From contig NZ_LRUE01000015.1 in NCBI RefSeq assembly GCF_001550135.1, positions 744,001-808,000 of the forward strand: DNA of 64,000 bases, given 5' to 3'. The notes beneath the pieces are model-generated. The model did no database searches. It saw only the letters and a list, made by a program, of their open reading frames with translations, and was not told where the DNA came from. The translations under genes and the position numbers were made by a program. Shown here piece after piece: positions 3,546 to 57,373 of this stretch; the stretch's first letter is position 1, and each line of letters opens with the position of its first letter. The DNA is from Pseudoalteromonas shioyasakiensis (GTDB lineage: Bacteria; Pseudomonadota; Gammaproteobacteria; Enterobacterales; Alteromonadaceae).

Positions 3546-3632
3546 AGTTTGCGCGCAAATTATTTTCCGACGATCTATTGCCTTTTATAGTAAAGATCAT
3601 TAAATTGATCGCAAATAGTTTGCGCACAAATG
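3546..3632. promoter_or_regulatory. Paired MarR/OhrR operator candidates in divergent promoter
   Basis: Two copies of a near-palindrome lie 71 bp apart: AGTTTGCGCGCAAAT, with a perfect 12-bp core TTTGCGCGCAAA at 3548-3559, and AGTTTGCGCACAAAT, core 3619-3630. Size and placement between a MarR gene and a divergent oxidoreductase fit a two-site operator. No binding data can be inferred. Confidence 0.65.
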
Positions 3633-3681
3633 TTTTGTGCAACTCATTAATTGATTCTAATCTAGCAGATTCGAGGTTTAT

Positions 3682-4680: not shown

Positions 4681-4697
4681 CGCTTAGCATGCAAATA

Positions 4698-4725
4698 AAG
4701 CCTGTATCTTAGTTGGTACAGGCTT
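4698..4725. terminator. Bidirectional terminator between convergent genes
   Basis: A 9-bp perfect stem (AAGCCTGTA / TACAGGCTT) separates the oxidoreductase from the convergent zinc-ribbon gene. Confidence 0.75.
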
Positions 4726-4732
4726 CTTATTA

Positions 4733-5248: not shown

Positions 5249-5268
5249 AGTACATCCTTGTTTTATAA

Positions 5269-5856: not shown

Positions 5857-6030
5857 AGTGTTTAATCTTACTTGTGCTTGCAATTCATTGTATTTAGGTA
5901 CAATTATTTTTTTAACTTGCTAAAAATTCAACTAAAATTCTAGATCTTCGCTAGACAACCAGCTAACCCTAAACTAGTATTTTTAAAAGCAAGATTAGCA
6001 CTTAAATACCTACTTAATTCAGAGACGCCA

Positions 6031-17582: not shown

Positions 17583-17864
17583 AGTTATTCTCTTTTTGGT
17601 TATTTTTATGGTTAGGAGCCCAGTACTCCATTAACACCGGCTTGTTATAAAAGCCGAAACACGCAAACACCATCTTAAGAACCTCAAATTTTTATCTTTT
17701 TTTATTTATTATTATTTTTCAACAAATTAGATGACCGCCGTTTATCTCAACTTTATTACTATAATATTTTTTAAATGTTATATTTGTTCACATTGCTGAA
17801 ACTGAAGGCGCATTTTTTTAACTTTATTTTGCCTTCGAATGTTAAATAAGTAGTCGAGTTCACT

Positions 17865-39648: not shown

Positions 39649-41487
39649 ATGATAAGGATATTGTGCTTGTTGCTATTTTTTGCAACCAATGTGGCTGCAA
39701 AGGATGTTCAGAGTGAAATCAGCCGTGTTCTTCACGGTTATACAACATATTCTGAATCTGTCGAAATTTTAGCTAGATTAGAAAAGCAAATGCCTTATGA
39801 AAATGCGCTAGATGATGCGCAAGTGATGGCGTTTAAATGTTGGTTTTCTAATGTATCAACCCCAAACAGGGTTAGCGAATATAAACATTTTCTAGAAACA
39901 GCCAAACCAGTCATTCATCAAGCAAACAATTTAAACTTAATACAGGAACTTGCTGTCTGTGAAGCAAACCAAGAGTATACACAAGGTAATTATCAAACAG
40001 CTCTAGAACACTTAAAACCAATAATTAACACGTCGTCATTAGACGAAATAACCTCTTCAAAAAAATTGTCAATCATTGCTCTTGCCCACATAGTACTTAA
40101 CCGTATTCAGTTAGCTAAAGGCAACTATCAAGAAGCATTCGACTCTGCTAAAACTGCTTATCAGTTATTTGAAAAAGCAGGTAATGACTACGAAAAAGCA
40201 CTCGCATTAAAAGAAATTGCCGATATTCACATAGCGTTGTACAACTATGAACTTGCAATTGAACAACTGCAGCGAGCCAAATTAGCGTTAACGAAATTCA
40301 ATGAGCAAGAGCAGTACAAAGTAGCGGATCAACTCGCGTATGCCTATGAAGAAAAAGGCGACTTAATAAAGGCTATTGAGCTATACGAGTCGATTAAAAA
40401 AGATGTTCGCCGTTTCGAAAGCGACAACGGATATGCTTACATATTAATTAAACTTACAGAACTCAATATAAAACTTAACAGTCTATCTCAGGCTGAGTCA
40501 TACCTAACTGAGTCGAACACGCTCTCTGTTACTGACAGCTGGATTTTGACTCTTTACAACTTCACTAAATCAGAATGGTACTTGGCTACAGCTCAGTTGC
40601 AAGCCGCCCTTTCATTTCATGAGAAGATAGCCGCCGCGCAACAACAATCTTGGCCCAAGAGCTTAAAGGAGCGTTATTTAAATTTAACCTCGCAGCTTGC
40701 AGCTGCAACAGGAGATACTTCCTTACAAATAGCATCTCAACAACAATTAATCTCTTTAATTAAAGATAAACAACAAGCTATCGCAAATAATACGCTTATT
40801 TCTGCCAGATTAAACTTTAATTATGAACAGCAGATCCTTGAGATTTCTCGTTTAGAACATGAGTCAAAGCTACAACAAAAGCTATTATCAGTAGCCGAAG
40901 ATAAGTCTTTTTGGCAAGGCTTAACTATGATGATAACTTGCTTGTGTTTACTCTTATTCGCCGTTTATACATTCAAACAAGTTCGCCAGAAAAAGTACTT
41001 TGAAATACTCGCTTTAAAAGATGAACTAACAGGCATAGCGAATCGCAGAGCTATATTAAATTTAAAACGAAGCGTCATGCTGCAAAACAAACTCAATCAG
41101 CAAGTCAGCTCATTAATTTCTATCGATATCGATCATTTTAAAGCGGTCAATGATCAATACGGTCACGATATTGGTGATGAATTAATCATTTCCATAACCA
41201 ATACGATTGTGCAAACCGTCCGTTGTTCTGATCGGGTAGGTCGTGTCGGCGGCGAAGAGTTTTTAATTGTGCTTGAGAATCAATCTTTAGAGCATGCAAA
41301 AGATATTGCCGAGCGCATCAGACTTTCTGTTGCCGAAAAGGAACATACATCATTGTCTATAAGCGCAACGATAAGCTTAGGTGTTATAGAAATTGCACCA
41401 AATGAAACGTCTGAACAGGCAGCCAAAAGGGTAGATTTACACCTTTATGAAGCAAAAAGAGGCGGCAGAAATACTGTTTATTCTTAG
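39649..41487 (+). CDS. Periplasmic-TPR diguanylate cyclase
   Basis: A 612-residue protein from the Met of MIRILCLLLFFATNVAAKD, a signal peptide preceded by a GGAG ribosome-binding site; a TTG further upstream would hide the signal. Residues about 30-400 form TPR-like helical pairs (YQEAFDSAKTAYQLFEKAG and similar). A transmembrane helix (near 425-445) leads to a GGDEF domain. The active site is RVGGEEF and the I-site RxxD (RCSD) lies five residues before it, so product inhibition is likely. It makes c-di-GMP in response to a periplasmic ligand or protein. It is the last gene before the Tn7-like element. Confidence 0.9.
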   Translation: MIRILCLLLFFATNVAAKDVQSEISRVLHGYTTYSESVEILARLEKQMPYENALDDAQVMAFKCWFSNVSTPNRVSEYKHFLETAKPVIHQANNLNLIQELAVCEANQEYTQGNYQTALEHLKPIINTSSLDEITSSKKLSIIALAHIVLNRIQLAKGNYQEAFDSAKTAYQLFEKAGNDYEKALALKEIADIHIALYNYELAIEQLQRAKLALTKFNEQEQYKVADQLAYAYEEKGDLIKAIELYESIKKDVRRFESDNGYAYILIKLTELNIKLNSLSQAESYLTESNTLSVTDSWILTLYNFTKSEWYLATAQLQAALSFHEKIAAAQQQSWPKSLKERYLNLTSQLAAATGDTSLQIASQQQLISLIKDKQQAIANNTLISARLNFNYEQQILEISRLEHESKLQQKLLSVAEDKSFWQGLTMMITCLCLLLFAVYTFKQVRQKKYFEILALKDELTGIANRRAILNLKRSVMLQNKLNQQVSSLISIDIDHFKAVNDQYGHDIGDELIISITNTIVQTVRCSDRVGRVGGEEFLIVLENQSLEHAKDIAERIRLSVAEKEHTSLSISATISLGVIEIAPNETSEQAAKRVDLHLYEAKRGGRNTVYS

Positions 41488-41559
41488 CTTTAAGAAGAGT
41501 TCAACAGCAATCAAAAAAGACACAGACTAAAATCCGACCAAACGAATGAAACACTCAAC

Positions 41560-41700
41560 TTGTTCTTTCTGATCCAAGACTGGAATTAAGCTAAAGAAAT
41601 AGTGGGAAAATTTAAGAGCACTTTCTGATTTGTATAGCTTCAAGTTTCTGATTAAACGCTAGAATTTGTTATTTTTCACGATTAATCGCTGGAATAAATT
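41560..41700. repeat. Putative left end of Tn7-like element with four TnsB-site-like repeats
   Basis: Four imperfect copies of a roughly 22-bp motif, consensus TTTCTGATTnAnnGCTrGAAT, begin near 41563, 41620, 41644 and 41672. The last two are the clearest: GATTAAACGCTAGAATT and GATTAATCGCTGGAAT. They lie directly beyond the tniQ terminator. Short reiterated sites inside the ends are what TnsB/TniA-type transposases bind. The sequence TGTTCTTTC at 41560 is a candidate terminus but is not proven. Confidence 0.5.
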
Positions 41701-41739
41701 TGCCATTAATATTTTGAGCAAAATCCAAACGAAAAAAAA

Positions 41740-41766
41740 GGCCAAGTGCATTAAATGCACTTGGCC
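41740..41766 (-). terminator. Strong terminator of the tns operon
   Basis: A perfect 12-bp stem (GGCCAAGTGCAT / ATGCACTTGGCC) with a 3-nt loop is followed on the minus strand by eight Ts. It closes the tnsA-tniQ transcript. Confidence 0.92.
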
Positions 41767-41843
41767 TATTATTAGAGTGATTTCAACTTTTTGTCAAATC
41801 AAGACAGCTAAGCGAAACTAAACAAGTCGACTAAAAACTCTAG

Positions 41844-43487
41844 CTAATGACGTCGTTTGTTTCTAAAAATGATGACGTCTTTTGATAAATCTATGTTTGA
41901 TTTACTAAAATGTGTAAATCGTGATTGTAATTTTTGCATACAACAATCATTGAGATGTGCTTTGTCATACAGAACAAAATCTGTCCTATTTGGATCCATG
42001 TAGATTTGAAAGATTGGCTGCACGTTACAGCACCCAGTAATACGTTTTTCGCACGTTCTCGCTTTTTCAAAATTAGCTTTTCTATTTAATATTAGGTAGT
42101 TAGAAACAAATTCACGTATGCTATCTGCATCTATTTGTTCACTGTTTTTCGTTGATAGTTTTAGATACTCATTTTCAATCAGTGTATCTAAAACATCAGC
42201 ATTTATTTTCAACATACGAATAGCGTCATACTTATTCACATCATCTATTGCTTTCCACTTTTCTTTCAATAATTGCTTTAACCCTTTCTCACTTACATAT
42301 AAATGATTAACACGCTCAATGCTTGTATTGACTTTATATAAACCTTCGACATGACTATTTAATACACAACTAACAAGCTCATCTCTCGATAAATCAAACA
42401 AATCATAGATGCCATTGGGCACATCACTTACTTTCAAGAATTTATCATCACATTCAGAAACTAGCTCAAATGATTTCGATAAAGCTTCTGCAACTTTTCT
42501 CATGTCATAAAATGACTTATCTTGTTGCTTACAAAGATAGATTGCATCAAACATGTTTTGCTGAGCAACATGAGAAAGCGACTTCATATTGATACCCAAA
42601 AACTCAGAAAGAGCTGCCCCGTCGACTTGGTAAGAAAAACTTTGTGAATCGAATTTACTGTCAAAGCGATGAGTAGAAACGTATAAAGACTTGTCAATCT
42701 GAGCACCATGATATTTTAATAAAAGAGTCTTTGCTTCTACCTCTTCAGTCGATTTTAAAAAGTTATACTCATGCTGAATTGAGTAGATTGAGTTAGCAAT
42801 CTCATCGAATCGATGATGCATGACTAACTCACCACATTTCTCAAATTGCGCTCTGTGCTTTAATAATAAGTGCCTCCACGTTTCACTTAGGGATGGGCAT
42901 GACAAAACCTTGAACACATCATCTAATAAAAACCTCATTTCCTGAACACTAAATTTTTGAAATTTAATTTTTGCTTGAATAAAGTCAAAGGGTCTGAATA
43001 AAAGGCTTGAGAACCCTAGTAGCTTTTCAGCAAACTCTGAGCTTTCAGTCTCACTCAAACACAGCATGTATCGCTCAAAACTCAGTAAATCATATGACTC
43101 TTGTAAGTCATAAAGAGGCAGGTTTTTTACATTGATTAGCGAACATTCATGTACCCGACAACTTGTCACTTCAATATGCTGCCATTGATAAAGTTGAATC
43201 CCCGTGTTGTGATAGCAGTGAGGACAAATCTTAATATTATCAGAGTCATTTATTGTGCCGCTTTTTTCAAGCACTTGCGCATAGTCTAATAATTTATATT
43301 GCTCAATATCCTGTTTAATCTGCTCATTTTCAAGTAACTTTTCAAAGTGAGAATGTGCATAAAGTTCAAATCGCGTTGGTGTCTGAATAGCATTAGATAG
43401 CATCAACTTTTTAACTGTTGCAAATCCATAAAAGCGAGCCACGGCCGCACACGCTGCATATGGTGATATAAAATGATTAGAGTTCAT
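41844..43487 (-). CDS. tniQ: TniQ/TnsD-family target-selection protein
   Basis: A 547-residue TniQ-domain protein. The N-terminal zinc-binding signature is visible: CPHCYHNTGIQLY and then CRVHEC, as in TniQ and TnsD. The rest is helical with no clear second motif. In Tn7 relatives this subunit recognises the attachment site or a guide complex and recruits TnsC. Its length lies between short CRISPR-linked TniQ proteins (about 400) and longer TnsD proteins, so it probably binds DNA on its own. It is last in the operon, overlaps tnsC by 11 bp, and has an AGGAG ribosome-binding site. No cas genes are near. Confidence 0.88.
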   Translation of the reverse strand: MNSNHFISPYAACAAVARFYGFATVKKLMLSNAIQTPTRFELYAHSHFEKLLENEQIKQDIEQYKLLDYAQVLEKSGTINDSDNIKICPHCYHNTGIQLYQWQHIEVTSCRVHECSLINVKNLPLYDLQESYDLLSFERYMLCLSETESSEFAEKLLGFSSLLFRPFDFIQAKIKFQKFSVQEMRFLLDDVFKVLSCPSLSETWRHLLLKHRAQFEKCGELVMHHRFDEIANSIYSIQHEYNFLKSTEEVEAKTLLLKYHGAQIDKSLYVSTHRFDSKFDSQSFSYQVDGAALSEFLGINMKSLSHVAQQNMFDAIYLCKQQDKSFYDMRKVAEALSKSFELVSECDDKFLKVSDVPNGIYDLFDLSRDELVSCVLNSHVEGLYKVNTSIERVNHLYVSEKGLKQLLKEKWKAIDDVNKYDAIRMLKINADVLDTLIENEYLKLSTKNSEQIDADSIREFVSNYLILNRKANFEKARTCEKRITGCCNVQPIFQIYMDPNRTDFVLYDKAHLNDCCMQKLQSRFTHFSKSNIDLSKDVIIFRNKRRH

Positions 43488-44397
43488 AATTAACTCCTAA
43501 TTCTACTTTTAGCAAAGAGAACTTTTTAGAAAATGGATTTGCTTGATTTTTCTTTGACGCACTAATTGAACTAAACACAGCAGCAAAATCTTTCACGAGA
43601 ACTTCATCTCTATTTTTGTCGCATGCATGAAAAACAGCCTTGCGAATAAGCATGCTCAGTTGACGCAAATCACCTTTTGTCATGGCAAAAATAGGCAAGC
43701 TGATTTCAGGGTTTGTGAAGTCAATTTGAGAAAATTTCAAATGTTCATTCAGAGTTATTAGATATTTCACAAAGTGAACATAATTTTTTCTTGTCGAGAC
43801 TGAAAGCAGTTTCTTCTCAATTATGAGTGAACATCGTGATGCGAATTGTTCATTAATTTCAAGTATATTCATGACTTTTGAAGTGCCTGCAAACACAAGA
43901 AACAACCCTAATTCATCAACTAACTCTTTAAGGTAATCAGCAATTTGGCGCGCCGATTTCACACCCACTTTTTCAACAACTTGCTGAAACTCATCAAACA
44001 CAAGAACACGATAACGCTTGTTCTTAACTTGCTGCGCGATACGTCGACGAAGCTCAACTTCAGAGCCTTGTATTGAGCCGGGCTCGGCCATACTACCTAA
44101 GATTGCACGGTAAAGGTCAAGCGGGCTCATGTTCGACGGCGAGCGAATATAACATGCTTTTATTGACTTGTTTTCACTTACGTCTGTGCTGTGCTTTTCA
44201 TTGAATCGCTTTATAAAAGCTTTAACCAGCGTTGTTTTACCACTGCCTGAGTCACCTACTATTACACTACAACTACCCACACCAAGACTCAGTGTCTGCT
44301 GTGATTCTTCAAGCAAATCAGCAAGCTCAAGACGATTATTCGCGCAATCAAATGTTTTACTGTATAACAATTCAGCCTTGCCTTTTAAACAACTCAT
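43477..44397 (-). CDS. tnsC: TnsC/TniB-family AAA+ transposition regulator
   Basis: A 306-residue AAA+ ATPase. Walker A is GDSGSGKTTLVKAF (near residues 48-61), Walker B is VLVFDEFQQV, and sensor-type residues follow in VFAGTSKV. In Tn7-like systems TnsC forms filaments on target DNA, links TniQ to the TnsAB transposase and gives target immunity. The protein lacks the long C-terminal extension of Tn7 TnsC (555 residues), so it is closer to the short forms of Tn7-like and Tn5053-like elements. It overlaps tnsB by 4 bp (ATGA), a sign of translational coupling. Confidence 0.9.
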   Translation of the reverse strand: MSCLKGKAELLYSKTFDCANNRLELADLLEESQQTLSLGVGSCSVIVGDSGSGKTTLVKAFIKRFNEKHSTDVSENKSIKACYIRSPSNMSPLDLYRAILGSMAEPGSIQGSEVELRRRIAQQVKNKRYRVLVFDEFQQVVEKVGVKSARQIADYLKELVDELGLFLVFAGTSKVMNILEINEQFASRCSLIIEKKLLSVSTRKNYVHFVKYLITLNEHLKFSQIDFTNPEISLPIFAMTKGDLRQLSMLIRKAVFHACDKNRDEVLVKDFAAVFSSISASKKNQANPFSKKFSLLKVELGVNYEL

Positions 44398-46385
44398 AGC
44401 TCACCACCGGGCTCAAAATCATCAAAAGTTGCACCAGTGTCGATATCTTCTTCGACAGCAACTTGCGCATTTAGCGAGTTTAAAATTTGCTCGCGCGCAT
44501 CAATAGAATCAACATCAATTGCTTTATCGTTATTGTATTTTGTCCGAGCTGCCTGTTTGCGACCTGTTTCAATCTCACGCTTTTCAGCTTGCTTTTGCTT
44601 AGCTTTTTTGAAATTAGGCAAACCCAGCTTGCTGCCATACTTATACTCATAATGCTTACGCTCAACAACATCACATTCACTGAATTGCGCGTTACGAGCA
44701 GCATCAAGCTCAGCTTGTTGAACCCCCACGTCGGTATGATGATTCATCTCACGCAGTGGCACGATAAATGTGTCGTTTTGATGCTTCACAACAACACTAC
44801 TTGTATCAATATCACTGTAAAAACATTCAACACTTTTCACATCTGACAAGCTCAAGGCTTTCAGCTCATCACTTACATACTGCTCATTTTTAAGCTTAAT
44901 TGAGCCGTTACCGTATAGCTTACACTTTGCACGATAACAGCCGCGAAATTCAGATAACTCTGCATTTTCAGGTACGGTTTGCAGCAGTGGATTTTTACTG
45001 ATTGCATTCATCCACACATCAAGCGGCGCACGATTTTTAAGTCCACTGTGAGCTGATTTCATATATGTATTTGTGATGTAATCTTCAAACGCAGCGACAA
45101 ATTCTTCAAGCGTCATTGATGCATGAAGTTCAGCATCTTCTGTCGCTTCTAGATGACTATTATTTATACGCGTTTTTGAGCCTAGATAGCCCGGCAGTTT
45201 ACTTAAAAACTCACGTCGTAGCGTGCGGAAGAAGCTTTCAATAAATGGCTTACTCTGCCCCTCGCCACTACGCGTGACGATTGGGTTCGAACCCAATTGC
45301 AAAGCAAGCGACTTGTACATATTGCCTTTAGTCGCAGTTGTTGCGTCTGTGATAATTTTTGACGGTATACCATACGCAGGCCATAATGGGTTATCTTTGG
45401 GAGTCACAACACTTTTCAAACATTCGATAGCTAAATCAGCAGATTCAGATGCGTTTTTACCTACATGAATTGAATAGCCGAGAGGGCAACGCGTACAAGT
45501 ATCAATCGCAATCATCATTACAATAGTGCCAAGATATTTGCTCGCGTCGTTGTTTAAACCTTGATTGATATAAACCGCGTCCATTTCAACCCGTTCCAAT
45601 GGGTCTTCAGGCACAAACTCACGACCCAGTTTATAACGCAGTTTTTTAGCTTCAGCTTTGCTTAAAGTCTTTTGTGTCGTCAATAATGCAAGCGATTCGT
45701 GAAAACGACGATATATAGTGTCGACACACGGTATGACTGGATAACACGCTGGCTTTGATTTACTAAGCTCGCGTATCTTGGCTCTCAACATATCTGCTAT
45801 TGCATGTACAGATTTTGCAGTTGCATCGCTTCTAACTAGATAATAATCACAAAAATACCCGTAGATTAAATCTTCTGTTGCAGCCGTCATTCGCTTTGAG
45901 CTTTTCTTTGCGTGATGGCCATGGCCAATTGATGAACGTATATCACAACCAGAATCTCGGTACGCTTTTATCTTCGCTTGGCACGTGCTACGCGAGTATT
46001 TTCTTGAGTTGTAACTTTGCCAACCGAAAGCTGCGATGCTTTCATCAACATTATGCTTTGCAGTAAAATTTTTACTGTGTTTCTCGAAATGCAAGTCAAA
46101 AAACGCTTGCCACATACTCATCTGATTTAATTGATTTTCAGTCAGCAATTGTTGCATTGGTATGTCAGAAGCGCGCTCATACAAAAGCGCTTCGCTATTT
46201 ATTAGCTTTTTATGAAGCTCAGATTGTGTCATGCACTCAATTCTTGCATTACTCATTTTCTGACTGTCATCATCAAGCAATGAGTAAAAAATCATATTAT
46301 CGAAGTGCTCTTGCGCTATCGAACGCACTATATAAGAACTGTTATCCATTCTAAACTTTGTGCCTTGTTTAATCACACCGCTCAT
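44394..46385 (-). CDS. tnsB: TnsB-family DDE transposase
   Basis: A 663-residue integrase-core transposase. The DDE triad is visible: Asp in VEMDAVYIN (near residue 268), Asp in IITDATTATKG (near 347) and Glu in KPFIESFFRTLRRE, giving the D-35-E spacing expected. An N-terminal helix-turn-helix region and a basic, helical C-terminal tail (EYKYGSKLGLPNFKKAKQ, then KREIETGRK) flank the core. It cuts the 3' ends and joins them to the target, while TnsA cuts the 5' ends. The start ATG overlaps the tnsA stop codon. Confidence 0.93.
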   Translation of the reverse strand: MSGVIKQGTKFRMDNSSYIVRSIAQEHFDNMIFYSLLDDDSQKMSNARIECMTQSELHKKLINSEALLYERASDIPMQQLLTENQLNQMSMWQAFFDLHFEKHSKNFTAKHNVDESIAAFGWQSYNSRKYSRSTCQAKIKAYRDSGCDIRSSIGHGHHAKKSSKRMTAATEDLIYGYFCDYYLVRSDATAKSVHAIADMLRAKIRELSKSKPACYPVIPCVDTIYRRFHESLALLTTQKTLSKAEAKKLRYKLGREFVPEDPLERVEMDAVYINQGLNNDASKYLGTIVMMIAIDTCTRCPLGYSIHVGKNASESADLAIECLKSVVTPKDNPLWPAYGIPSKIITDATTATKGNMYKSLALQLGSNPIVTRSGEGQSKPFIESFFRTLRREFLSKLPGYLGSKTRINNSHLEATEDAELHASMTLEEFVAAFEDYITNTYMKSAHSGLKNRAPLDVWMNAISKNPLLQTVPENAELSEFRGCYRAKCKLYGNGSIKLKNEQYVSDELKALSLSDVKSVECFYSDIDTSSVVVKHQNDTFIVPLREMNHHTDVGVQQAELDAARNAQFSECDVVERKHYEYKYGSKLGLPNFKKAKQKQAEKREIETGRKQAARTKYNNDKAIDVDSIDAREQILNSLNAQVAVEEDIDTGATFDDFEPGGEL

Positions 46386-47068
46386 TATGCATCACCGTGA
46401 ATATTGTTAGTTAAAACGGTTTCATTACAGATATTGCATGAAACATCCATTTTTACATAATCTTTCAAAATAAAATGACAAATCAGATTTCTATTTAAGT
46501 TCAGAGCATCACAAATTGCGTGTGCTTTCTGTAGAGTCAGCTCACTCGGTAAGACATTAAGCAGTATGTTCACATGCTCATCATTCACAACTTTCATTGA
46601 CAAAGCATTGCGTAATATCATCTTCATGTTTGATAAAGCCCTGCGTGACGGTAAGTCTTCTTCGGTCAAAACCGAAAATTTAAAGCCCAGCTTCGCAAGC
46701 GCTTTTTCAATCAAAAAATGAGTGCGTTTTGTCTTTTCATCAATCGCTTTTGAGTGCTTCACTTCGACCACACAAATACTTTCATCACAATAACTTAATG
46801 AGAAATCAGGTGTATACAACCGCTTCTTATTGTCATCTGTATAACTGATTGAAAATGGCTGGGTTCGAACAGATTTTATCGTTTGATCAAACTCAAACAT
46901 CAATGCAAAATGTGACTCATTGAACGATTCGAAAAAATGCGGCTGGTTATCTTTCAGTGTCGGGCAAAGGCCGCTGATATTAAAACGACTGAACCGATCA
47001 AGGCGACGTCGCATACTTTCTTTGTTATATACACTATCAATATTGCTGTGATTTGAATGTTCATTCAT
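46385..47068 (-). CDS. tnsA: TnsA-family endonuclease
   Basis: A 227-residue restriction-endonuclease-fold protein, taken from the Met of MNEHSNHSNIDSV, which has a GAGAG ribosome-binding site; an upstream TTG would add nine residues. The PD-(D/E)xK-like core is visible: YTPDFSLSY, then VVEVKHS, with a helix FLIEKALAKLGF after it. The N-terminal RFNISGLCPTLKDNQPHFFES resembles TnsA proteins of Tn7-like elements. Having TnsA beside TnsB predicts cut-and-paste transposition rather than the replicative mode of TnsA-less elements. It is first in the operon, next to the putative right end. Confidence 0.88.
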   Translation of the reverse strand: MNEHSNHSNIDSVYNKESMRRRLDRFSRFNISGLCPTLKDNQPHFFESFNESHFALMFEFDQTIKSVRTQPFSISYTDDNKKRLYTPDFSLSYCDESICVVEVKHSKAIDEKTKRTHFLIEKALAKLGFKFSVLTEEDLPSRRALSNMKMILRNALSMKVVNDEHVNILLNVLPSELTLQKAHAICDALNLNRNLICHFILKDYVKMDVSCNICNETVLTNNIHGDA

Positions 47069-47123
47069 AACGCTAACTCTCACTCTAAAATTCAATCTCT
47101 TTTTTTAAAGTAGCGGCTAAACT

Positions 47124-47275
47124 CACAAAATCAAGCTATTTACCATTTATTTTTAAGCTTAACGTCATTTCAAGCAATTAACGCCATATAAAGATAATTT
47201 AAAATAATAACTAATTGAAAAAGAAATATCTTTTTTTGTCACAAATACAAAAAACAAAACAATAAGCTCTCAAAT
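47124..47275. repeat. Putative right end of Tn7-like element with inverted TnsB-site-like repeats
   Basis: Read on the minus strand, GTTAATTGCTTGAAAT (within 47163-47185), TAAATAGCTTGATTTTGT (within 47124-47144) and a weaker AGAGCTTATTGTTTTGT (within 47253-47275) match the motif seen beyond tniQ, in opposite orientation. The region is AT-rich and lies between tnsA and the umuD promoter. The exact terminus should fall between here and about 47365. Confidence 0.45.
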
Positions 47276-47365
47276 AACCGGCCGTTATTAGCAGTAACTT
47301 TTTATGGGATGAAAATCTAAACGGAGAAACTTCAAAAGAGTGGAATGACACAGACAATCAAACTA

Positions 47366-47385
47366 TACTGTATGCATATACAGTG
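47366..47385 (+). promoter_or_regulatory. LexA (SOS) box upstream of umuDC
   Basis: A near-perfect 20-bp palindrome of the CTGT-N8-ACAG type (CTGT at 47368, ACAG at 47380) lies 8 bp before the umuD start codon, so LexA binding would block the promoter directly. Confidence 0.93.
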
Positions 47386-47393
47386 AGGTGCAT

Positions 47394-47807
47394 ATGTTTG
47401 TTATTCCAATTTTTATCGAAGCGGGCATTACCGGCTTTGAATCACCAGCAGCAGAATATACTGAGCTAGGCATATCGTTAGATGAGCTTGTTATTCGCCA
47501 CCCTAATGCGACCTTTATAGGCCTTGCATCTGGGCAGTCTATGCAAGATGTCGGGATTTTTGATGGTGATTTACTTGTCGTTGATAGAGCTGAGAACGTA
47601 TCTTCCGGTGATGTTATCGTTGCAAGCTACAACGGTACATTCGTGTGCAAAATTATCGATAAATCGAATCGCTTGCTAATCTCTGCATCTAAGAATTATT
47701 CATCTGTTTATATCTCACCTGAAGACGACTTCAAACTCGAAGGCGTCGTTACAACCAGTATTCGGCTTCATAAAAATAAAGTCGCACTCAGTAAATGTTT
47801 GCCCTAG
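47394..47807 (+). CDS. umuD: UmuD, SOS polymerase V subunit (self-cleaving)
   Basis: A 137-residue LexA-like (S24) protein. RecA-stimulated self-cleavage gives UmuD', which joins UmuC as DNA polymerase V. Catalytic Ser49 (SGQSM) and Lys86 (FVCKII) are present, 37 residues apart as in E. coli. The cleavage site by alignment is Thr13-Gly14 (GITGFESPAAEY), where Cys-Gly or Ala-Gly is usual. The ATG was chosen over a GTG six bases upstream because GAGG lies at the right distance. It overlaps umuC by 13 bp and sits behind a LexA box. Confidence 0.94.
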   Translation: MFVIPIFIEAGITGFESPAAEYTELGISLDELVIRHPNATFIGLASGQSMQDVGIFDGDLLVVDRAENVSSGDVIVASYNGTFVCKIIDKSNRLLISASKNYSSVYISPEDDFKLEGVVTTSIRLHKNKVALSKCLP

Positions 47808-49054
47808 TTGATGCAGTGGCATTTTATGCCAGTGCTGAGAAAGTGTTTGACCCAGCTATACGACACAAGCCCGTTGTTGTTTTAACAAATAACGATGGGT
47901 GTATATGTGCTGTATGTCCTATTGCTAGACAAATCAACATCCCCAAGTTTCAGCCTTACTTTAAAATTAAACGCTACTTAGAGCTGCATGATGTTGTTGT
48001 ACGCTCATCTAACTATGAGCTTTATGCTGATTTAAGTGAGCGAATGATGACGGTTATCGGGCGTTTTTGTGATGACCACTACGTATACAGTATTGATGAA
48101 TCATTTTTAAGTTTCTCTGGATTTTCTAAAGTAATTAGTGATTGGGCTGAGTATGGGCAGGTTATTCGTCGTGCCGTGTGGCGTGAAACGGGATTGCCTG
48201 TTGGTGTTGGGTTTGGGCCTACCCCCACGCTCGCAAAAGCAGCCAATCATGCCGCTAAGAAGCTGTTTGGATATAACGGTGTCGCCGTTATCAATGATGA
48301 TAAATCACGCTGTGAAATTTTATCTAAGATGGCCGTAACCGATGTGTGGGGAATTGGCTCTCGCCTAGGTAATAAATTAAAACAACTGAATATACAAACA
48401 GCCTTGGATTTAGCAAATCAAAACCCTAAAGCAATGAGAAAAATGTTCAGCGTCGTGGTTGAACGCACAGTTAATGAACTCAATGGTGTAGCGTGTTTAA
48501 CTTGGGATGAAGTAAAACAAAATAAGAAAGAAATCTTTTCAACACGCAGCTTTGGCGAGCGCATTACTGATATCACTCCTTTAAAAGCTGCGCTTGTAAC
48601 ACATGCTGCTATTGTGGCTAGGAAGTTAAGACGACAACACTCTTTAACAAAGCGTATTGTTATATTTGCAGCCAGCTCCCCGCATGAAGAAGTCTATTAC
48701 AAAAAGTCGATGCTGTATGACTTTATCACACCAACATCCGATACTCGCGTCATTGCAAAAGCGGTGTCAGAAGTTATCAATACACTATATAAACCCGATA
48801 CCCGTTTTTATCGATGTGGAATCGGTGCAATTGAACTTGAGAGTGAGTACTTTTATCAAACAGATATGTTTAACAAAAGTGCTGACAACCCTAAAATAAT
48901 GACGTGTATCGACACAATTAACAACCGCTATGGTGTTGGCGCTTTAAGCATTGGCAGTGAAAAGCTCACGCAAAAATGGGCTATGAGACGCGCTTTTTTA
49001 TCACCACATTACACTACCCGATGGTCAGATATTCCCGTGATTGACTGTGACTGA
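47795..49054 (+). CDS. umuC: UmuC, Y-family DNA polymerase V catalytic subunit
   Basis: A 419-residue translesion polymerase. Catalytic carboxylates are in FALVDAVAFYASAEKVF (Asp near residue 6) and SIDESFLSF (Asp-Glu near 101-102). VWGIGSRLGNKLKQL is the thumb helix-hairpin-helix. The little-finger domain and the C-terminal WAMRRAFLSPHYTTRWSDIP complete the chain, so the gene is full length (E. coli UmuC is 422). It is co-transcribed with umuD under LexA. A different, truncated umuC lies 1.5 kb further on. Confidence 0.96.
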   Translation: MFALVDAVAFYASAEKVFDPAIRHKPVVVLTNNDGCICAVCPIARQINIPKFQPYFKIKRYLELHDVVVRSSNYELYADLSERMMTVIGRFCDDHYVYSIDESFLSFSGFSKVISDWAEYGQVIRRAVWRETGLPVGVGFGPTPTLAKAANHAAKKLFGYNGVAVINDDKSRCEILSKMAVTDVWGIGSRLGNKLKQLNIQTALDLANQNPKAMRKMFSVVVERTVNELNGVACLTWDEVKQNKKEIFSTRSFGERITDITPLKAALVTHAAIVARKLRRQHSLTKRIVIFAASSPHEEVYYKKSMLYDFITPTSDTRVIAKAVSEVINTLYKPDTRFYRCGIGAIELESEYFYQTDMFNKSADNPKIMTCIDTINNRYGVGALSIGSEKLTQKWAMRRAFLSPHYTTRWSDIPVIDCD

Positions 49055-49099: not shown

Positions 49100-49546
49100 T
49101 CATGCTGTGAAACCGTACTGAAGCTGCTTAATAACATTTTTAATTAGCTCACGTCCGCGTATTGAGTTCAACACTAATCGAGGTGCTCGACTGTTAAATT
49201 GAATATGAGCAGTATTTAACCATGCATTCCAATTTTCGATGCAACCAAAATAGTTAATTCCAATCATACTTAGTCTTGCAACTTCAATCGCATGTTCGCT
49301 AGTTTGTGAACTTAATGATTTAGATTTACATCGCGATAATGTTGCAGATGTTGTACCTAATGCGTTTGCGACTGTTGCCATATCCCACCCCATTAGACTG
49401 GCAAAAGCATACACTCCGGATGCATTCACACCATTTCTTACAACTGTTATTTCTGACAAAGGGTTTGAATGGGATGTAAGTTCTCCACATGAAATTATTT
49501 GAACTAAATCAGAGTTACTTGATAACTTTAACTGGCTTTCTGTCAT
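49100..49546 (-). CDS. MbcA/ParS/Xre-type antitoxin (DUF2384), orphan
   Basis: A 148-residue protein from the Met of MTESQLKLSSNSDLVQ, chosen because the upstream residues are not family-like. The Xre-type helix-turn-helix (GWDMATVANALGTTSATLSR) leads to the DUF2384 C-terminal domain (HAIEVARLSMIGINYFG, then WLNTAHIQFNSRAP, LVLNSIRGRELI and IKQLQYG). Family members pair with a RES-domain NAD-degrading toxin encoded just downstream. Here the downstream side holds only the end of umuC, so the toxin is missing. It may be a solitary regulator or a relic. Confidence 0.82.
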   Translation of the reverse strand: MTESQLKLSSNSDLVQIISCGELTSHSNPLSEITVVRNGVNASGVYAFASLMGWDMATVANALGTTSATLSRCKSKSLSSQTSEHAIEVARLSMIGINYFGCIENWNAWLNTAHIQFNSRAPRLVLNSIRGRELIKNVIKQLQYGFTA

Positions 49547-49679
49547 TTGACACCCGCTTAAAATCACGCATTGATTTAAGTTTAGCAGAGAAATCTTTTG
49601 AATTAGCATTAACGAAATGGAATGTATCGAGTCACATAAAAACACATGTTAGATTAGTTGCTATATCGATTTCAGCGTA

Positions 49680-49888
49680 ACTAAGAAATTGCTTATGATA
49701 CTTACTTAATGTAAGGGCTAATTTACCTTCTACGGCTTCGCGAATTAAAGTATCACCTTATTTAACCCCCAACTCTTCACAATGCTTGTCTGACAGTGGA
49801 ACGTCGACGTTTTAACCTCCTTTTACAGGCCATTAGCTTAGGACTTGTAATAAATTAATTTAACACAAAGTAAAACAGAAGCTTTATT
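49680..49888 (-). pseudogene. Possible degraded antitoxin remnant; no intact gene
   Basis: No intact gene was found. On the minus strand a strong AAAGGAGG motif (near 49816-49823) precedes a short broken frame. The peptide CEELGVK, a stop, then GDTLIREAVEGKLALT resembles an AbrB-type DNA-binding unit with an internal TAA at 49758-49760. The resemblance is weak and no start codon is clear. Confidence 0.22.
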
Positions 49889-50359
49889 TCAGCCTATCAC
49901 AGCCTCTTTTCCGGCATAATAGATCGTAAATTGACTTGTATTAAACTTATGATTTCCGAGCACTTTATATTTATGGTAAAGCCCTGTTCTCTCAGCGTTT
50001 TCAGATGCCATACGAATCACAAATTTATTAAGCCTATTCTGATGTGATATATGAATCGAGTCCTCAATTAGCTGTGTAGCTATAGACTGTCGGCGATTAG
50101 CAGAGTCGACATATGTATTGAATAATTCGCATACTCTGTTATGAAAGTAAAAATACCTAAACGCCACAATTTCGCCCTCTACGATAGCTAGCAAAATGTT
50201 ATGGGTATCATCAAGGCTTTCATAGCCTGTAGGAAAAAAATCCCTAAAAAACATTAATTGATTCTCAAGAAATAATTCATATTCATTCCTTACTTCCATG
50301 GTCATTTTAGACACTATAGCTTTTGAAAGTTGCAATGATTTTATATGCTTTAACTGCAT
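49889..50359 (-). CDS. GNAT-family N-acetyltransferase
   Basis: A 156-residue protein. The acetyl-CoA binding region is YVDSANRRQSIATQLIED, where the usual Gly of RRxxGxA is replaced by Ser; the following helix and the VIRMASENAERTGLYHKYKVLG segment fit the GNAT fold. An AAGGAG ribosome-binding site lies nine bases upstream of the ATG. The substrate is unknown. It sits alone between gene remnants, so mobile-region cargo is likely. Confidence 0.75.
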   Translation of the reverse strand: MQLKHIKSLQLSKAIVSKMTMEVRNEYELFLENQLMFFRDFFPTGYESLDDTHNILLAIVEGEIVAFRYFYFHNRVCELFNTYVDSANRRQSIATQLIEDSIHISHQNRLNKFVIRMASENAERTGLYHKYKVLGNHKFNTSQFTIYYAGKEAVIG

Positions 50360-50420: not shown

Positions 50421-50600
50421 TCATACATCAGAAAAGATTATTGGCCCGAGCTCACGTCCAAAGTTCTCTGCTCCTGCTACATCAGGTAGTCTATAGCGCC
50501 TCATATGCGGTCCTTTGTCATGCGGTCTTGGAGGAGTAATAGAATTTAGACTATTTGCTGAAGCTACTAGTCTAGTTAAGATTGGGAAGTCCAGACATTA
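50421..50600 (-). pseudogene. Unidentified gene fragment (C-terminal part)
   Basis: An open stretch on the minus strand encodes about 58 residues ending KGPHMRRYRLPDVAGAENFG, then RELGPIIFSDV and a stop. The ordered composition looks protein-like, but no start with a ribosome-binding site precedes it and it ends against the truncated umuC. I do not recognise the family. It may be the end of a gene joined to the umuC remnant by an old deletion. Confidence 0.25.
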
Positions 50601-51240
50601 GTTGGATCAAAAAGACGTTCACAGTTGTTCTTGCCCGTACTGTGGAAGAGTTACGAGGAAAACCTGCGGTAGAATTGAAAGATATTAACGACTCTCGCGA
50701 TAGAATTTGCGTATCTCAAAGTATGGGAATACCGGTGATTGAGCTTACGGAGCTTTCTGAAGCTGTTACAGCACATGCAACAAAAGCAGCGTTTAAGCTT
50801 CGTCGATTTAAATCTTATACATCAGCAATAACAGTATTCATCCACACAGATTCATTTAGACAGGCAGAGCCGCAGTATCATAAGTCACAATCAATAAAAC
50901 TACCCTACTCCACAGCGGATACATCTACACTGGTGTCTTATGCAAGCTTTGCATTAAAAGCTATTTTTAAGAAGGGGTTCAAATACAAAAAAGCCGGTGT
51001 TATTTTTGAAGAACTTTCATTACACGATGATATGCAACAACTTGAGCTTTTATCGGAGAATTTACCACTGAATATTAGCTCAAAAACGTTAGTCATTGAT
51101 GATGATAAATAGAAAATTTGGACGAAGTACATTGAAACTTGCAAGTGAAGGATTCTCTCACCCTTGGAGACCTAAAGACGATTTAGCACCGTTAAATTAC
51201 ACGACTAAACTTTCAGATATCCCTACTCCGAAAGCAAAGT
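50582..51240 (+). pseudogene. umuC remnant (C-terminal half, frameshifted)
   Basis: Residues matching the UmuC thumb and little finger are present (IKKTFTVVLARTVEELRG, then SQSMGIPVIELTELSEAV), but the palm and fingers are absent. Near 51104 an extra base in a GAT run closes the frame with TAG; the next frame continues as INRKFGRSTLKLASEGFSHP and ends NYTTKLSDIP, the normal UmuC C-terminus. The fragment is not a copy of the intact umuC nearby, since corresponding residues differ widely, so a second umuC lineage once stood here. Confidence 0.88.
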
Positions 51241-51369: not shown

Positions 51370-51685
51370 GTTCAGACCCATTATGCAGTAATTGCTAAAC
51401 TGTAGTTATTACTAAAGTCCAAATTAAAGTATTTTGGTAGTTTAAATTGGAACGCCAACCCTAATTAAGGTACATCATTCTTGACATAATATAGCACATA
51501 TTTTGTGATGAAAAGAGTGAGCCTTTCTTACTGAGCTAACGTAAGGTTAGAAATTACATAAGTATAATATCGTAATCAATAAGTCATGAAGAGCAACAAG
51601 TGCACCTATTAATTACACATGGCGTTACCATATTTTTAGAACTTATGTACTATACTTCATTGTGATTAGTAGCTCTGGAGTTCGA

Positions 51686-52648
51686 ATGGCTGGATATCCT
51701 TATACATCACTTCACGATTTGGCACTTAAAGATATTGAGTGGGAACGTTGGCAAAGGCTCGTTAATTCAATTGCAGCGTTGTTCAACTCGCCAGTGGCAT
51801 TTATAAATCAAGCTTCCAACAAAGGCATTGAAGTTCTAGTTGCTTCAGAATTACCTACGACCCATTATTCCCCAGGCGGCTCTGCAAGTATTGAAACTAA
51901 TGTTTATTGCCATAAAGTAGTTAGAAGTAACTCGCCGCTCTACGTCAAGGATGCCTCAAAAACTAATGAATGGGATAATAACCCAGAAGTAACAGAAGAT
52001 AATTACGTATCGTACTTGGTTTATCCTATCCATTGGCCTGATGGTAAGTGCTTCGGTACTTTATGTGTTATGGATACATCGCCGACTAATTACAAGCAAC
52101 CTTTTCTTGAGATGCTTGAAGTATTAAGAGATGTGATCAGCAGTGATTTGGCACACCTTTATAAAGAGAGTGAATTAAAAATAGAAAGTCGATTAGATCC
52201 CTTAACTGAAATACATAATAGACGAGGCTTTGAAGAAGCCTTTATCCAATTTCAAAAATTAGGTAACCGTCTTAACAGAGCAGCTCAATTACTTTTTATA
52301 GATCTAAATAACTTTAAGAAAATAAACGATACTCTAGGCCATAATGCTGGTGACGAAGTCCTTAAACGTTTTGCCAATGTTCTAAGATCATGCATCAGAA
52401 AAACAGATTTGCTTTGTCGCTGGGGTGGTGATGAGTTTGTTATTATCTTAAATAATGAAGATAAAGTTGCACAAAAAGAGTTCATTGAACGAATTAAAGA
52501 AAAACAAGAGAATGATTTTAAGAACTATGGTTACAAAGAAATTTGTTTTTCTGTGGGTGCTGTAGAAGTAGTGCCAAATATAAACTGCGACTTAGCTCAG
52601 CTATTACACAAAGCCGATAACATCATGTACTCTTGCAAAAAAGATTAA
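51686..52648 (+). CDS. GAF-GGDEF diguanylate cyclase
   Basis: A 320-residue cytosolic protein from the Met of MAGYPYTSLHDLALKD, with GGAG at the right distance. Residues about 20-160 form a GAF domain (IAALFNSPVAFINQ, then YLVYPIHWPDGKCFGTLCV). The C-terminal GGDEF domain is intact: RWGGDEF, with the I-site RKTD five residues before it, plus DPLTEIHNRRGF at the start. It should make c-di-GMP and be feedback-inhibited. It is the first of three c-di-GMP genes in a 4-kb stretch. Confidence 0.92.
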   Translation: MAGYPYTSLHDLALKDIEWERWQRLVNSIAALFNSPVAFINQASNKGIEVLVASELPTTHYSPGGSASIETNVYCHKVVRSNSPLYVKDASKTNEWDNNPEVTEDNYVSYLVYPIHWPDGKCFGTLCVMDTSPTNYKQPFLEMLEVLRDVISSDLAHLYKESELKIESRLDPLTEIHNRRGFEEAFIQFQKLGNRLNRAAQLLFIDLNNFKKINDTLGHNAGDEVLKRFANVLRSCIRKTDLLCRWGGDEFVIILNNEDKVAQKEFIERIKEKQENDFKNYGYKEICFSVGAVEVVPNINCDLAQLLHKADNIMYSCKKD

Positions 52649-52877
52649 CCGCTTACAGTAAACAAGCTCTTACTACCAACCTTCCGCTTAAGCTCTATAG
52701 CAATATACAACAGCTGTGCTACCTGTCCTTAAAGGCGCCTAGCAATACTATAAGAACAAGGTTTATTTTTCCCTAAGCTATATCTAAAGAAACTCACTAC
52801 CAAATGGAAACTTGACTGAAAAAGAACTATTTTCTAGGCTTATTTTAGTATGACGCTAAGGCGCATTAAGAGCCGTA

Positions 52878-54596
52878 ATGAAAAAAAACAACTTTGAAAC
52901 TAACTCAACCTTCAGTCCTACAACAAACTTGCCTGACGTTCGCTTCTTAGAGCTCATTGAATCACTCTCAAAAGTAGCTGTTCAAGGCTACAATCGACAT
53001 CGTGAAGTAATTTATTGGAATAAAGCAAGTACCTTTCTATATGGGTACACTCAAACTGAAGCTTTAGGAAAAAAACTAGAAGATTTGATCATCCCTCCTT
53101 CAATGAAAAAGGATGTCATTGCAGCACATAAAAATTGGCTTGAACACAACATTCCCATTCCATCATCCGAATTAACTTTACAAGATATTAAGGGTCAGCC
53201 GGTGCCTGTTTTTTCATCTCATGTTTTATTAAAAACTAGAGGAGATGAATTTGAAATGTTTTGTTTAGATATTGATATTTCTGAGCAAGTATCTGTTCGT
53301 AAAGCTTTGGAAAAAATGGTGTCTTATGATCCAATAACTAACTGTTTGAATCGTCATTCCATCGAGTTAGTTATTAATGAGCTTATAACAAGCAATATAA
53401 AGGGCTTTTCTCTACTATTTATCGATATAGATCGATTCAAAGATGTGAATGATGTTTTCGGCTATGAAGCGGGTGATGAATTACTCCTTAAAGTTTCTGA
53501 GCGCCTCTCTACCCCATTAGAAAAAACTGACTACATAGCTCGCTTTAGCGCTGATGAATTCATAGTTATTTTGAGTTCGAAGCCCTCATCAAATCATGAA
53601 AAATTAACTCAGCTTTTGGTTGATTCATTTAATTCACCTTTAAAACTGCATGACCAACTGATTTTTATTTCAATTAGTGTCGGGATCTGTCGTTTTCCGA
53701 ATGATGGAAATTCAGTAAGAACTTTATTACAGTGCGCTGAAACCGCAATGTACGACGCCAAGGAAAATGGACGTAGTCAGTTTAGAATTTATAACAAAGC
53801 GATGAGCGATAGCTCGCATTTCCAGATTGAGATATCACAGCGCCTCAGAGAGTCACTAATACATGAAGAGTTTCACCTTGTATATCAACCCATCTACTGC
53901 GCTCAGTCTGAAAAAATAGTTGCTTGTGAGGCTCTATTGCGTTGGGATTCTAATGCTAATAAAAACAATACCACTCCTGATACTTTTATACCCATTGCGG
54001 AAAAAGTCGGTCTCATGATCCCAATTGGTAACTTAATATTTCATATGGCCCTCAAAGAACTAAAAAAATGGCGCTCTAATGGTATAAATGATGTTCGCAT
54101 GCTGATTAATATTTCAGGAAAGCAATTGCTCCAAAAGGAGTTCTTTTCACAGCTTTCTGAATTACTTGAAATATATGAACTTATCCCATCAGATATTGGA
54201 CTAGAGCTAACAGAGCATGCCTTAATTGAAGCTGATGATGAACTTCTAAAAAACTTATCATTACTTCAAGTACAAGGCGTAGACATTGCTATTGATGATT
54301 TTGGGACTGGCTATTCATCTTTAAGTTACTTAAATAAACTCCCAGTTAACACGTTAAAGATCGATAAGTCATTCGTAGACTATGCACCATACAGAAATAA
54401 TGATAGTGCCATATTTGAAGCTATTGTGGGTGTTGCGCATAAACTAGATCTTTTAGTTATTGCTGAGGGAGTAGAAACAACGCAGCATGTTGAATACTGC
54501 AAGTCTAAAAATGTCGACATGCTTCAAGGTTATAGCTATTCTAAGCCATTATCTTCACAAGATCTGGAAAGTTTTTTGTTACCGTTTAAATCTTAA
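52878..54596 (+). CDS. PAS - degenerate GGDEF - EAL phosphodiesterase
   Basis: A 572-residue cytosolic protein. A PAS domain (residues about 25-140, with WNKASTFLYGYTQTEALGK) is followed by a GGDEF domain whose signature is SADEF, so cyclase activity is unlikely; it may bind GTP as an activator. The EAL domain is complete: CEALLRWD, NISGKQLL, LTEHALIE, DDFGTGYSSL, KIDKSFV, AEGVET and LQGYSYSKPL. c-di-GMP hydrolysis is therefore predicted, opposing the two flanking cyclases. Confidence 0.92.
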   Translation: MKKNNFETNSTFSPTTNLPDVRFLELIESLSKVAVQGYNRHREVIYWNKASTFLYGYTQTEALGKKLEDLIIPPSMKKDVIAAHKNWLEHNIPIPSSELTLQDIKGQPVPVFSSHVLLKTRGDEFEMFCLDIDISEQVSVRKALEKMVSYDPITNCLNRHSIELVINELITSNIKGFSLLFIDIDRFKDVNDVFGYEAGDELLLKVSERLSTPLEKTDYIARFSADEFIVILSSKPSSNHEKLTQLLVDSFNSPLKLHDQLIFISISVGICRFPNDGNSVRTLLQCAETAMYDAKENGRSQFRIYNKAMSDSSHFQIEISQRLRESLIHEEFHLVYQPIYCAQSEKIVACEALLRWDSNANKNNTTPDTFIPIAEKVGLMIPIGNLIFHMALKELKKWRSNGINDVRMLINISGKQLLQKEFFSQLSELLEIYELIPSDIGLELTEHALIEADDELLKNLSLLQVQGVDIAIDDFGTGYSSLSYLNKLPVNTLKIDKSFVDYAPYRNNDSAIFEAIVGVAHKLDLLVIAEGVETTQHVEYCKSKNVDMLQGYSYSKPLSSQDLESFLLPFKS

Positions 54597-54667
54597 ATAA
54601 CTTGCTACACCACCCATTTGAACATTAGTTTGGAACGTGATTTTAATGAGTAGGTAACGTATTTTAC

Positions 54668-55717
54668 CTAGTATTCAACACGGTTTTTCCCTTCTTTTTT
54701 CGCTTTATATAGTAGTTTATCAGCTTGCTTTATCACATCTTTAATGGACAATTTTTTATGTAACTCAACCACACCGGCACTAAATGTAAAATTCAACGCT
54801 TTGTTACCATGGTTAATCAACATAGTTTTAACTCCACTTTGCAGCCTTACTAGAGCATTCTTAGCCTCTATGACATTGACCCCCTGAAACACAATAACGA
54901 ACTCTTCACCTCCAAAGCGAAAAATTAAATCTTCACGCCTAAGAAAAGTCTGAGCTATCTTTGAAAACCCCTTTAATACCTCATCACCTGCTTGGTGACC
55001 GTACGTGTCATTTATTGATTTAAAATTATCGAAATCAATAAAACCAATAGCCAAAGGCAAGCTTTTTCGTACATGGAGGCTTATAGTTCTTTCAATGGCA
55101 TCAAAAAAATACCGACGATTATAAACACCAGTTAAGTCATCATAAAACACTAAGTTAACAAGCTTATCTTCTAGCTTAGCTTGTTTTTGGGCCATAAATC
55201 GATATGTACAACAATCAGCAATCAACTCAGCAAAATAAACTTCATCCTTATTCCACTCTCTGAAATTGGCTTTTTGTTCAAAACAAACAACCCCGATAGG
55301 ACTCCCTTCACTAAAGATAATTGTATCAAGCATCGACTTGATATTTTCTGTTTTTAAATAAGTATAAGTGAAGTCGATTGTTCTATGATCAGTATGCGCA
55401 TTATCAGCTATAATTGGAGCGCCGAATTCTATTGCTTCAAAATAGCGCGGGTAATCACTCTTAGTTAGATATGGTAGGTCTTTAGGGATATCATTAACTC
55501 CCCAATCAGTATTTGCAACACACTCTAAAATGCTTTTTTCTGGGTCCGAATTAAGCAACCAAACAGAAATACGACTGACATCCAAAGTTTCAAGTGAATC
55601 CTGCAAAACTTGCCACATAAATACTTGCACCGGGGCACTGTAATCAACCTTCATTGATGCATGGCGCCGGATTAAATTGGAGCTAACTAGAATTTTATCG
55701 TAATTATCCAAAAACAA
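54668..55717 (-). CDS. GAF-GGDEF diguanylate cyclase
   Basis: A 349-residue cytosolic protein. The N-terminal half is GAF-like (SRISVWLLNSDPEKSILEC, then GSPIGVVCFEQK). The GGDEF domain has the intact active site RFGGEEF and I-site RRED five residues before it; DDLTGVYNRRYF and GFIDFDNFKSINDTYGHQAGD are typical. It is transcribed toward the EAL gene. With its two neighbours it makes a cyclase/esterase/cyclase group within the accessory region. Confidence 0.92.
   Translation of the reverse strand: MFLDNYDKILVSSNLIRRHASMKVDYSAPVQVFMWQVLQDSLETLDVSRISVWLLNSDPEKSILECVANTDWGVNDIPKDLPYLTKSDYPRYFEAIEFGAPIIADNAHTDHRTIDFTYTYLKTENIKSMLDTIIFSEGSPIGVVCFEQKANFREWNKDEVYFAELIADCCTYRFMAQKQAKLEDKLVNLVFYDDLTGVYNRRYFFDAIERTISLHVRKSLPLAIGFIDFDNFKSINDTYGHQAGDEVLKGFSKIAQTFLRREDLIFRFGGEEFVIVFQGVNVIEAKNALVRLQSGVKTMLINHGNKALNFTFSAGVVELHKKLSIKDVIKQADKLLYKAKKEGKNRVEY

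Positions 55718-56153: not shown

Positions 56154-57373
<1,220 letters not shown>

Follow-up and report, generated by a model that had tools for sequence, protein, structure and literature searches.

A 64,000-nucleotide stretch of Pseudoalteromonas shioyasakiensis (NCBI RefSeq assembly GCF_001550135.1, contig NZ_LRUE01000015.1, positions 744,001 to 808,000; hereafter the window) carries a compact tnsA-tnsB-tnsC-tniQ operon, and the question it raises is where the transposon served by these genes begins and ends. An earlier note, made from the letters of the window, had placed both ends next to the operon (41560–47365) and proposed a minimal, cargo-free Tn7-like element of ~5.8 kb. We conclude instead that the operon very probably belongs to a Tn7-like cut-and-paste homing transposon of ~49.0 kb, with its left end 283 bp past tniQ and its right end ~43 kb upstream of tnsA. 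Genomes and their contigs are designated by our G and C numbers below; the genome of the window is G000.

The four genes were identified from the list of open reading frames (ORFs), by profile searches and in an alignment of relatives:

46385–47095, minus strand: tnsA, 236 aa, PD-(D/E)xK-type endonuclease
44394–46385, minus strand: tnsB, 663 aa, DDE transposase
43477–44397, minus strand: tnsC, 306 aa, AAA+ regulator
41844–43487, minus strand: tniQ, 547 aa, TnsD-like target selector

The ORFs overlap one another, in keeping with the tight arrangement described earlier. Profiles of Pfam and NCBIfam matched TnsA (1.3e-10) and TniB/TnsC (1e-23), and TnsB was matched as an IS481/IS3-like DDE transposase (3.9e-13, under the cut-off of that model). 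Residues E60, D97, E111 and K113 of TnsA, D269, D347 and E383 of TnsB, the Walker A (GxxGxGKT) and Walker B (DEFQ) motifs of TnsC, and C88, C91, C110 and H113 together with C486, C487, C515 and C516 of TniQ are invariant in all seven aligned relatives (the TniQ row of G343 is without the N-terminal ~43 residues). The assignment of TniQ is weak but consistent across members: the window protein matched Pfam TniQ at 2.4e-4, under the curated cut-off, five of the seven aligned members did so at E ≤ 0.01 (best 2.2e-6), PDB chains of TniQ were matched from 0.0013 upward, and the gene shares its operon with tnsC. The set thus comprises, by sequence, the DDE TnsB, the AAA+ TnsC, a TniQ/TnsD-type selector and the TnsA endonuclease of the cut-and-paste branch, and the operon was rightly recognized as Tn7-like, with catalytic motifs intact.

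On the tniQ side, the boundary near 41560 withstood comparison with element-free relatives. Homology to G358 and G288, in which the flanking cyclase gene is present and close tns genes are missing, stops at 41559 and 41566, respectively, and the following features lie between this point and tniQ:

41561–41695, plus strand: left end, with terminal TGTTCTTTCTGATCCAAGACTGGAA and transposase-site-like repeats at 41566, 41645 and 41675, spaced apart
41733–41773, strand not assigned: hairpin between tniQ and the left end, with 20-nt arms that are 90% complementary

The left end opens with TGTTCTTTCTGATCC, 283 bp beyond tniQ, and its sequence from 41561 (TGTTCTTTCTGATCCAAGACTGGAAT) is followed by the two further site-like repeats. 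The hairpin, already noticed as a strong terminator after tniQ, is likely the intrinsic terminator of the tns operon.

The tnsA side yielded no comparable end. When the whole window was scanned with a weight matrix, three sites came up at the left end and a single weak match at 49450, with nothing transposase-site-like near 47.1–47.4 kb, which leaves 47365 unsupported as an element end; one shuffled window, scanned as a control, yielded two matches. Between 41401–41844 and 47096–47400 the longest inverted exact matches were 8 nt (n = 6, five of them A runs with one or two G) and the longest direct ones three 9-mers; the short repeats said to stand outside both ends of the operon in opposite orientation were not confirmed. 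An element whose two ends flank only tnsABC-tniQ would agree with the correctly placed left end and with a break in homology to P. gelatinilytica NH153 (G309) at 47320, 68 bp before the umuD ORF. However, what differs between the two elements at this break is whether they have umuDC, both extend past it, and in four elements the left end has its mate at a great distance. We therefore regard the 5.8-kb element as refuted and give it next to no weight.

The mate was located through the sequence that adjoins the left boundary in element-free G358. There, a small ORF (MDSALV...), without a Pfam or NCBIfam match, follows the boundary and is convergent with anmK. In genomes with the element this sequence lies at C2:18734 of G000 and at C11:340724 of G309, in the latter case 33 kb from the left end; it is not found at 47.4 kb. 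Both far junctions consist of an inverted copy of the end and, directly after it, a second site-like repeat, which was read by eye and is under the threshold of the scan that scored the left-end sites. We searched 108 Pseudoalteromonas genomes for the end pattern TGTTCTTTCTGNTCCAANNNTGGAA with up to two mismatches. G000, G309 and G343 each contain exactly two occurrences, oppositely oriented, and the reversed pattern, used as a control, had no match in the 108 genomes. It also occurs exactly twice in the closed replicon of P. shioyasakiensis A316, and G304 has one forward and one reverse match on two different replicons. An all-pairs search for ends in G343 returned the left and right end as the clear best pair (21/23; next 14). 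Judged by sequence, the element is bounded by TGT...ACA with repeated transposase sites that are spaced at the left end and close at the right end.

In G000 the element is split over two contigs, C7, which holds the window, and C2. Because these share an exact overlap of 2,162 bp, the left end at 41561 can be joined to the right end near C2:18605, which gives an element of 49,019 bp:

41561–64000, strand not assigned: part of the element within the window, continuing through C7:808001–818136 and C2:1–18605 to the right end

Those of G309, G343 and A316 each lie on one contig. The four elements have the following dimensions:

G000: 49.0 kb; tniQ to left end 283 bp; right end to tnsA 43 kb
NH153 (G309): 32,889 bp; tniQ to left end 282 bp; right end to tnsA 27 kb
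P. shioyasakiensis A316 (closed 859,666-bp replicon CP076682.1): 25,673 bp; tniQ to left end 283 bp; right end to tnsA 20 kb
G343: 16,624 bp; tniQ to left end 302 bp; right end to tnsA 11 kb

All four have the same order of right end, cargo, tnsABC-tniQ and left end. The polarity is standard, yet the operon sits fixed beside the left end, with the cargo on the tnsA side. The four-gene set that the earlier note suggested looking for elsewhere is present in relatives, and across the four elements the right end is 11–43 kb from tnsA and not beside it. That note had also named the outcome that would speak against a minimal element, namely an end far outside the interval with umuDC or the hheA-like gene inside; this was looked for and is what we found. 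Among the named genomes, A316 and NH153 have the TnsB closest to that of the window (95.8% and 91% identity, respectively), while that of G343 is 62% identical. A fifth case, G098 (TnsB 53% identical), has its left end just past tniQ and its right side off the contig. At 13 of 16 other Tn7-like loci (the three left out being G273, G099 and G309 C16), a search for TGT-terminated end pairs gave best scores of 12–16 of 23, near noise, with G343 scoring 21 as the control; a repeat-count test of the ends was not discriminating. In a sample of 394 genomes from the order, three were found at E ≤ 1e-80 (G000, G098, G088), and viral contigs held two distant TnsB-like loci and no others.

The far ends mark a recurrent chromosomal site. 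We read the 20 matches to the end pattern in the 108 genomes as 15 right ends, four left ends and one unrelated match (G018). Twelve of the 15 right ends, in 12 genomes, lie 111–130 bp upstream of homologues of the same small anmK-adjacent gene and all face it, and the right end of A316, 113 bp from the small gene, is a further case. The region upstream of this gene is thus a recurrent, oriented attachment site. Within the 12 flanks a block, GTCATAA...ATAATT, is conserved and starts 44–48 bp from the right end in nine and 54–55 bp in three; in Tn7, the TnsD binding site and the insertion point are similarly far apart. The earlier expectation of a TniQ that is probably site-specific, with a target that is not among the usual ones, agrees with these findings.

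Repeats directly outside the TGT...ACA ends were compared for five end pairs. The NH153 element is flanked by AACT on either side and that of A316 by ACTT, and a 3.4-kb unit in G304 that has no tns genes likewise has a 4-bp flanking repeat; if the left end is taken to start at GTTC, each of the three becomes a perfect 5-bp repeat. Both the NH153 and the A316 repeat can be accommodated in element-free G342 without loss of a base, one base apart. An eroded AACTT duplication was considered as the source of the short repeats and dropped, given the perfect 4-bp repeats in three elements and the fit to G342.

These repeats and the distribution of the ends bear on two other explanations. In a composite, the tns element would have lost its own right end next to tnsA and come to stand beside the right end of an older element that occupied the same site, and the cargo on the right-end side would be a scar instead of a single unit that transposes. 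Such a history would suit G098, where the left end of the tns element is succeeded by a right end and one more left end, a degenerate right end seen by eye outside the left end of G343, the junction of a left-type array with a right end in G304, the lack of a close tns set in the genomes that hold 12 of the 15 right ends, and the window element, which is without a convincing target duplication. We nevertheless consider it unlikely: the same layout recurs in G343 with a TnsB of 62% identity and different cargo, the left end follows tniQ in G098 as well (TnsB 53%), and the flanking repeats of NH153 and A316 match across the whole unit. More improbable still are resident, domesticated tns genes on an ordinary genomic island that moved by other means. 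The same lack of a convincing duplication in the window copy and the many relatives that keep a right end without close tns genes could be taken to favour them, but the catalytic residues are intact, the ends are paired, and different cargo occurs at the same site in different species.

A single ~49-kb homing transposon, the reading we prefer, has several observations to contend with. The flanks of the window element share 2 bp only (CAACT versus CTTTC) and those of G343 1–2 bp; the perfect 4-bp repeats, in three of five pairs, are one short of the 5 bp of Tn7 unless the left end starts at GTTC. A join of C7 and C2 induced by a repeat is possible, and the exact length of the window element depends on the assembly, since the element is split and the overlap lies in a repeated gene. 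Three of the 15 right ends (G218, G335, G127) are at another site, and the conserved flank block could be the promoter of the small gene and not a TniQ site. The predicted structure of TniQ is weak (predicted local distance difference test score 71, predicted template modelling score 0.44), and a Foldseek search with this model gave no PDB match at E ≤ 0.001.

Close TnsC proteins are encoded in four of the 108 genomes (G000, G309, G343 and G098), and three of these (G000, G309, G343) are among the 15 genomes with right ends. Of the other 12, five are without a TnsB match at E ≤ 0.001 and seven have distant matches only (9.3e-30 to 2.2e-7); no tns genes were found in the stretches around these 12 right ends (up to 20 kb). 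By eye, the right ends of G218, G335 and G127 (loci L059, L060 and L064) are upstream of an oxidoreductase-like gene, a position that may serve a related TniQ as another attachment site. The 3.4-kb unit on C1 of G304 (L082, 15941–19310) has both ends and no tns genes, in a genome without a TnsB match at E ≤ 0.001, and is a candidate for a trans-mobilized element. On C2 of G304 (L083, ~708–5300) and in G349 (L084, ~16970–19370), right ends are accompanied by left-type site arrays 2.4–4.6 kb away, again without tns genes; no intact left terminus was seen in these two stretches, where the terminus looks fused to right-end-like sequence. In G098, a ~0.46-kb unit (L037, ~5878–6338) with little beyond one right and one left end comes directly after the left end of the tns element and is followed by further end-like sequence, so that the whole is a tandem array of ends. 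End-to-end junctions are thus present in both G304 and G098. Outside the left end, G343, G342 and G369 have flanks that resemble, by eye, decayed right ends, and sites that appear empty may therefore not be pristine. In G369 and G342 (L030, L032) the 3' end of the cyclase gene appears, by eye, to be replaced by the same diverged tail, followed by another GGDEF-like region, as if cyclase genes had recombined.

Within the window, the cargo comprises the following features:

47366–47384, plus strand: palindrome TACTGTATGCATATACAGT before umuD, read from the sequence, which we take to be LexA-box-like
47388–49054, plus strand: umuD and umuC (ORFs, profiles)
49100–50359, minus strand: Xre/MbcA/ParS-type antitoxin-like gene and a 156-aa ORF (ORFs, profiles), both also in NH153
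50582–51112, plus strand: umuC C-terminal fragment (profiles)
51662–55717, strand not assigned: GAF-GGDEF, PAS-GGDEF-EAL and GAF-GGDEF genes (profiles)
56477–57373, plus strand: IS3-type transposase (HTH_21, rve; profiles)
57568–63474, minus strand: 1968-aa DUF4011/helicase/restriction endonuclease protein, matching the PADLOC PDC-S37 and Hhe models

The earlier placement of the insertion between a diguanylate cyclase gene and umuDC does not stand, as umuDC is cargo and GGDEF/EAL genes are cargo as well. Beyond the window follow a Na/Ca exchanger-type gene, reverse-transcriptase-like ORFs, an EptA-like gene, another sulfatase-family gene and a sensor kinase. The overlap of C7 and C2 holds, by eye, a reverse-transcriptase/maturase-like ORF (L053 16092–17720, equal to L052 117–1745), which probably caused the contig break inside the element. 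NH153 shares 14.8 kb of cargo with the window at 97%, compared with 91% for the tns region; its cargo is otherwise different and, by eye, includes metal-efflux-like genes. Its element is without umuDC, with ~160 bp in place of window positions 47321–49017. The truncated umuC lies 1.5 kb from the intact umuDC and is also present in NH153, where the intact pair is missing. At the place equivalent to 49100–50359, A316 has genes named DUF2384 and GNAT (the latter name being that of the A316 annotation), and its cargo is annotated with an SMR efflux gene, DUF3696 and insertion sequence genes. The cargo of G343 is unlike that of the window. The Hhe-like protein has a Glu-Ala repeat at residues ~1742–1783 (window 58126–58251), probably a variable one. 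No cas genes were recognized among the listed ORFs, of which the profile scan covered part of the cargo.

By analogy with Tn7, TnsB would bind the repeated sites at both ends and join these to the target, TnsA would cut the 5' strands, and TnsC would bridge. The long TniQ would recognize a fixed chromosomal site, putatively the conserved GTCATAA... block ~44–55 bp outside the right end and upstream of the small anmK-linked gene; at this site the right end faces the gene, and the cargo sits between the right end and tnsA. The genes, their ends, the layout and the recurrent, oriented site are read directly from the sequences; transposition activity, the contact of TniQ with its site and the cut-and-paste mode are what we infer. 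We see about even chances for a broader proposal: Pseudoalteromonas would harbour a stable Tn7-like lineage with its operon fixed at the left end and all cargo between the right end and tnsA, which would put the tns promoter tens of kb from the TnsB sites of the right end. Its 547-aa TniQ would home to non-coding DNA, a block that precedes a small conserved gene, the target duplication may be 4 bp and not the usual 5 bp, and right ends and small, trans-mobilizable tns-less units would accumulate.

With cargo on the tnsA side, a portion of a Tn7-like element can be mistaken for a minimal, cargo-free one, and a method that places the right end beside tnsA would miss such cargo. A candidate TniQ target is thus added in non-coding sequence next to anmK. 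It is filled, always in one orientation, in 12 of the 108 genomes of the genus, and could be developed for the integration of DNA into marine Pseudoalteromonas. Another question raised by the layout is what regulates the tns genes if their promoter lies outside the right end; the repeats at the flanks, in turn, pose that of a stagger of 4 or 5 bp.

Among known systems, Tn7 (TnsABC with TnsD) and other Tn7-like elements with one long TniQ/TnsD resemble the window element in the TnsA endonuclease, DDE TnsB, AAA+ TnsC, the zinc-finger-type motif of TniQ, TGT...ACA ends with repeated sites and oriented insertion at a fixed chromosomal site. In prototypic Tn7, tnsA abuts the right end, and the cargo occupies the stretch from the tns genes to the left end. 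The window operon, in contrast, adjoins the left end and has its cargo between right end and tnsA; across the four elements the right end is 11–43 kb from tnsA and the left end 282–302 bp from tniQ. The target upstream of the small anmK-linked gene differs from glmS, and the repeats are of 4 bp (5 bp with the shifted left boundary). No tnsE was noticed, although no search aimed at it was made. To our knowledge, the small gene is not among the targets of Tn7-like elements, nor is it among those named in the passages of the Tn7-like literature that we consulted. A literature search turned up no paper on a Tn7-like attachment site near anmK. Neither the left-anchored layout nor the anmK-side site is described in the parts consulted of PMC8649781, PMC10293859, PMC11406308, PMC12150760 and PMC12671221; the supplements of large surveys may list such elements. 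Of 6,549 Tn7-like elements delineated in one survey, 96% carried cargo, with median lengths of 14–29 kb (PMC8649781, in part). A cargo-free Tn7-like element of the kind first proposed for the window has already been described as Tn5469 (PMC11406308, in part); the window element differs from it by its ~43 kb of cargo. The closest solved relatives of the window TnsA, TnsB and TnsC are those of the type I-F3 CRISPR-associated transposons PseCAST (TnsB 2.3e-23, TnsA 2.3e-17) and VchCAST Tn6677 (TnsC 4.2e-31), compared with 2.1e-5 for TnsB of Tn7 itself. These differ in their TniQ of ~360–430 aa, versus the 547 aa of the window protein, whose gene directly follows tnsC. By convention the right end is the one upstream of the tns genes, and in Tn7 the right-end sites are close and the left-end sites spaced (PMC11406308, in the part consulted), a pattern with which the spaced left-end and close right-end sites of the window element agree.

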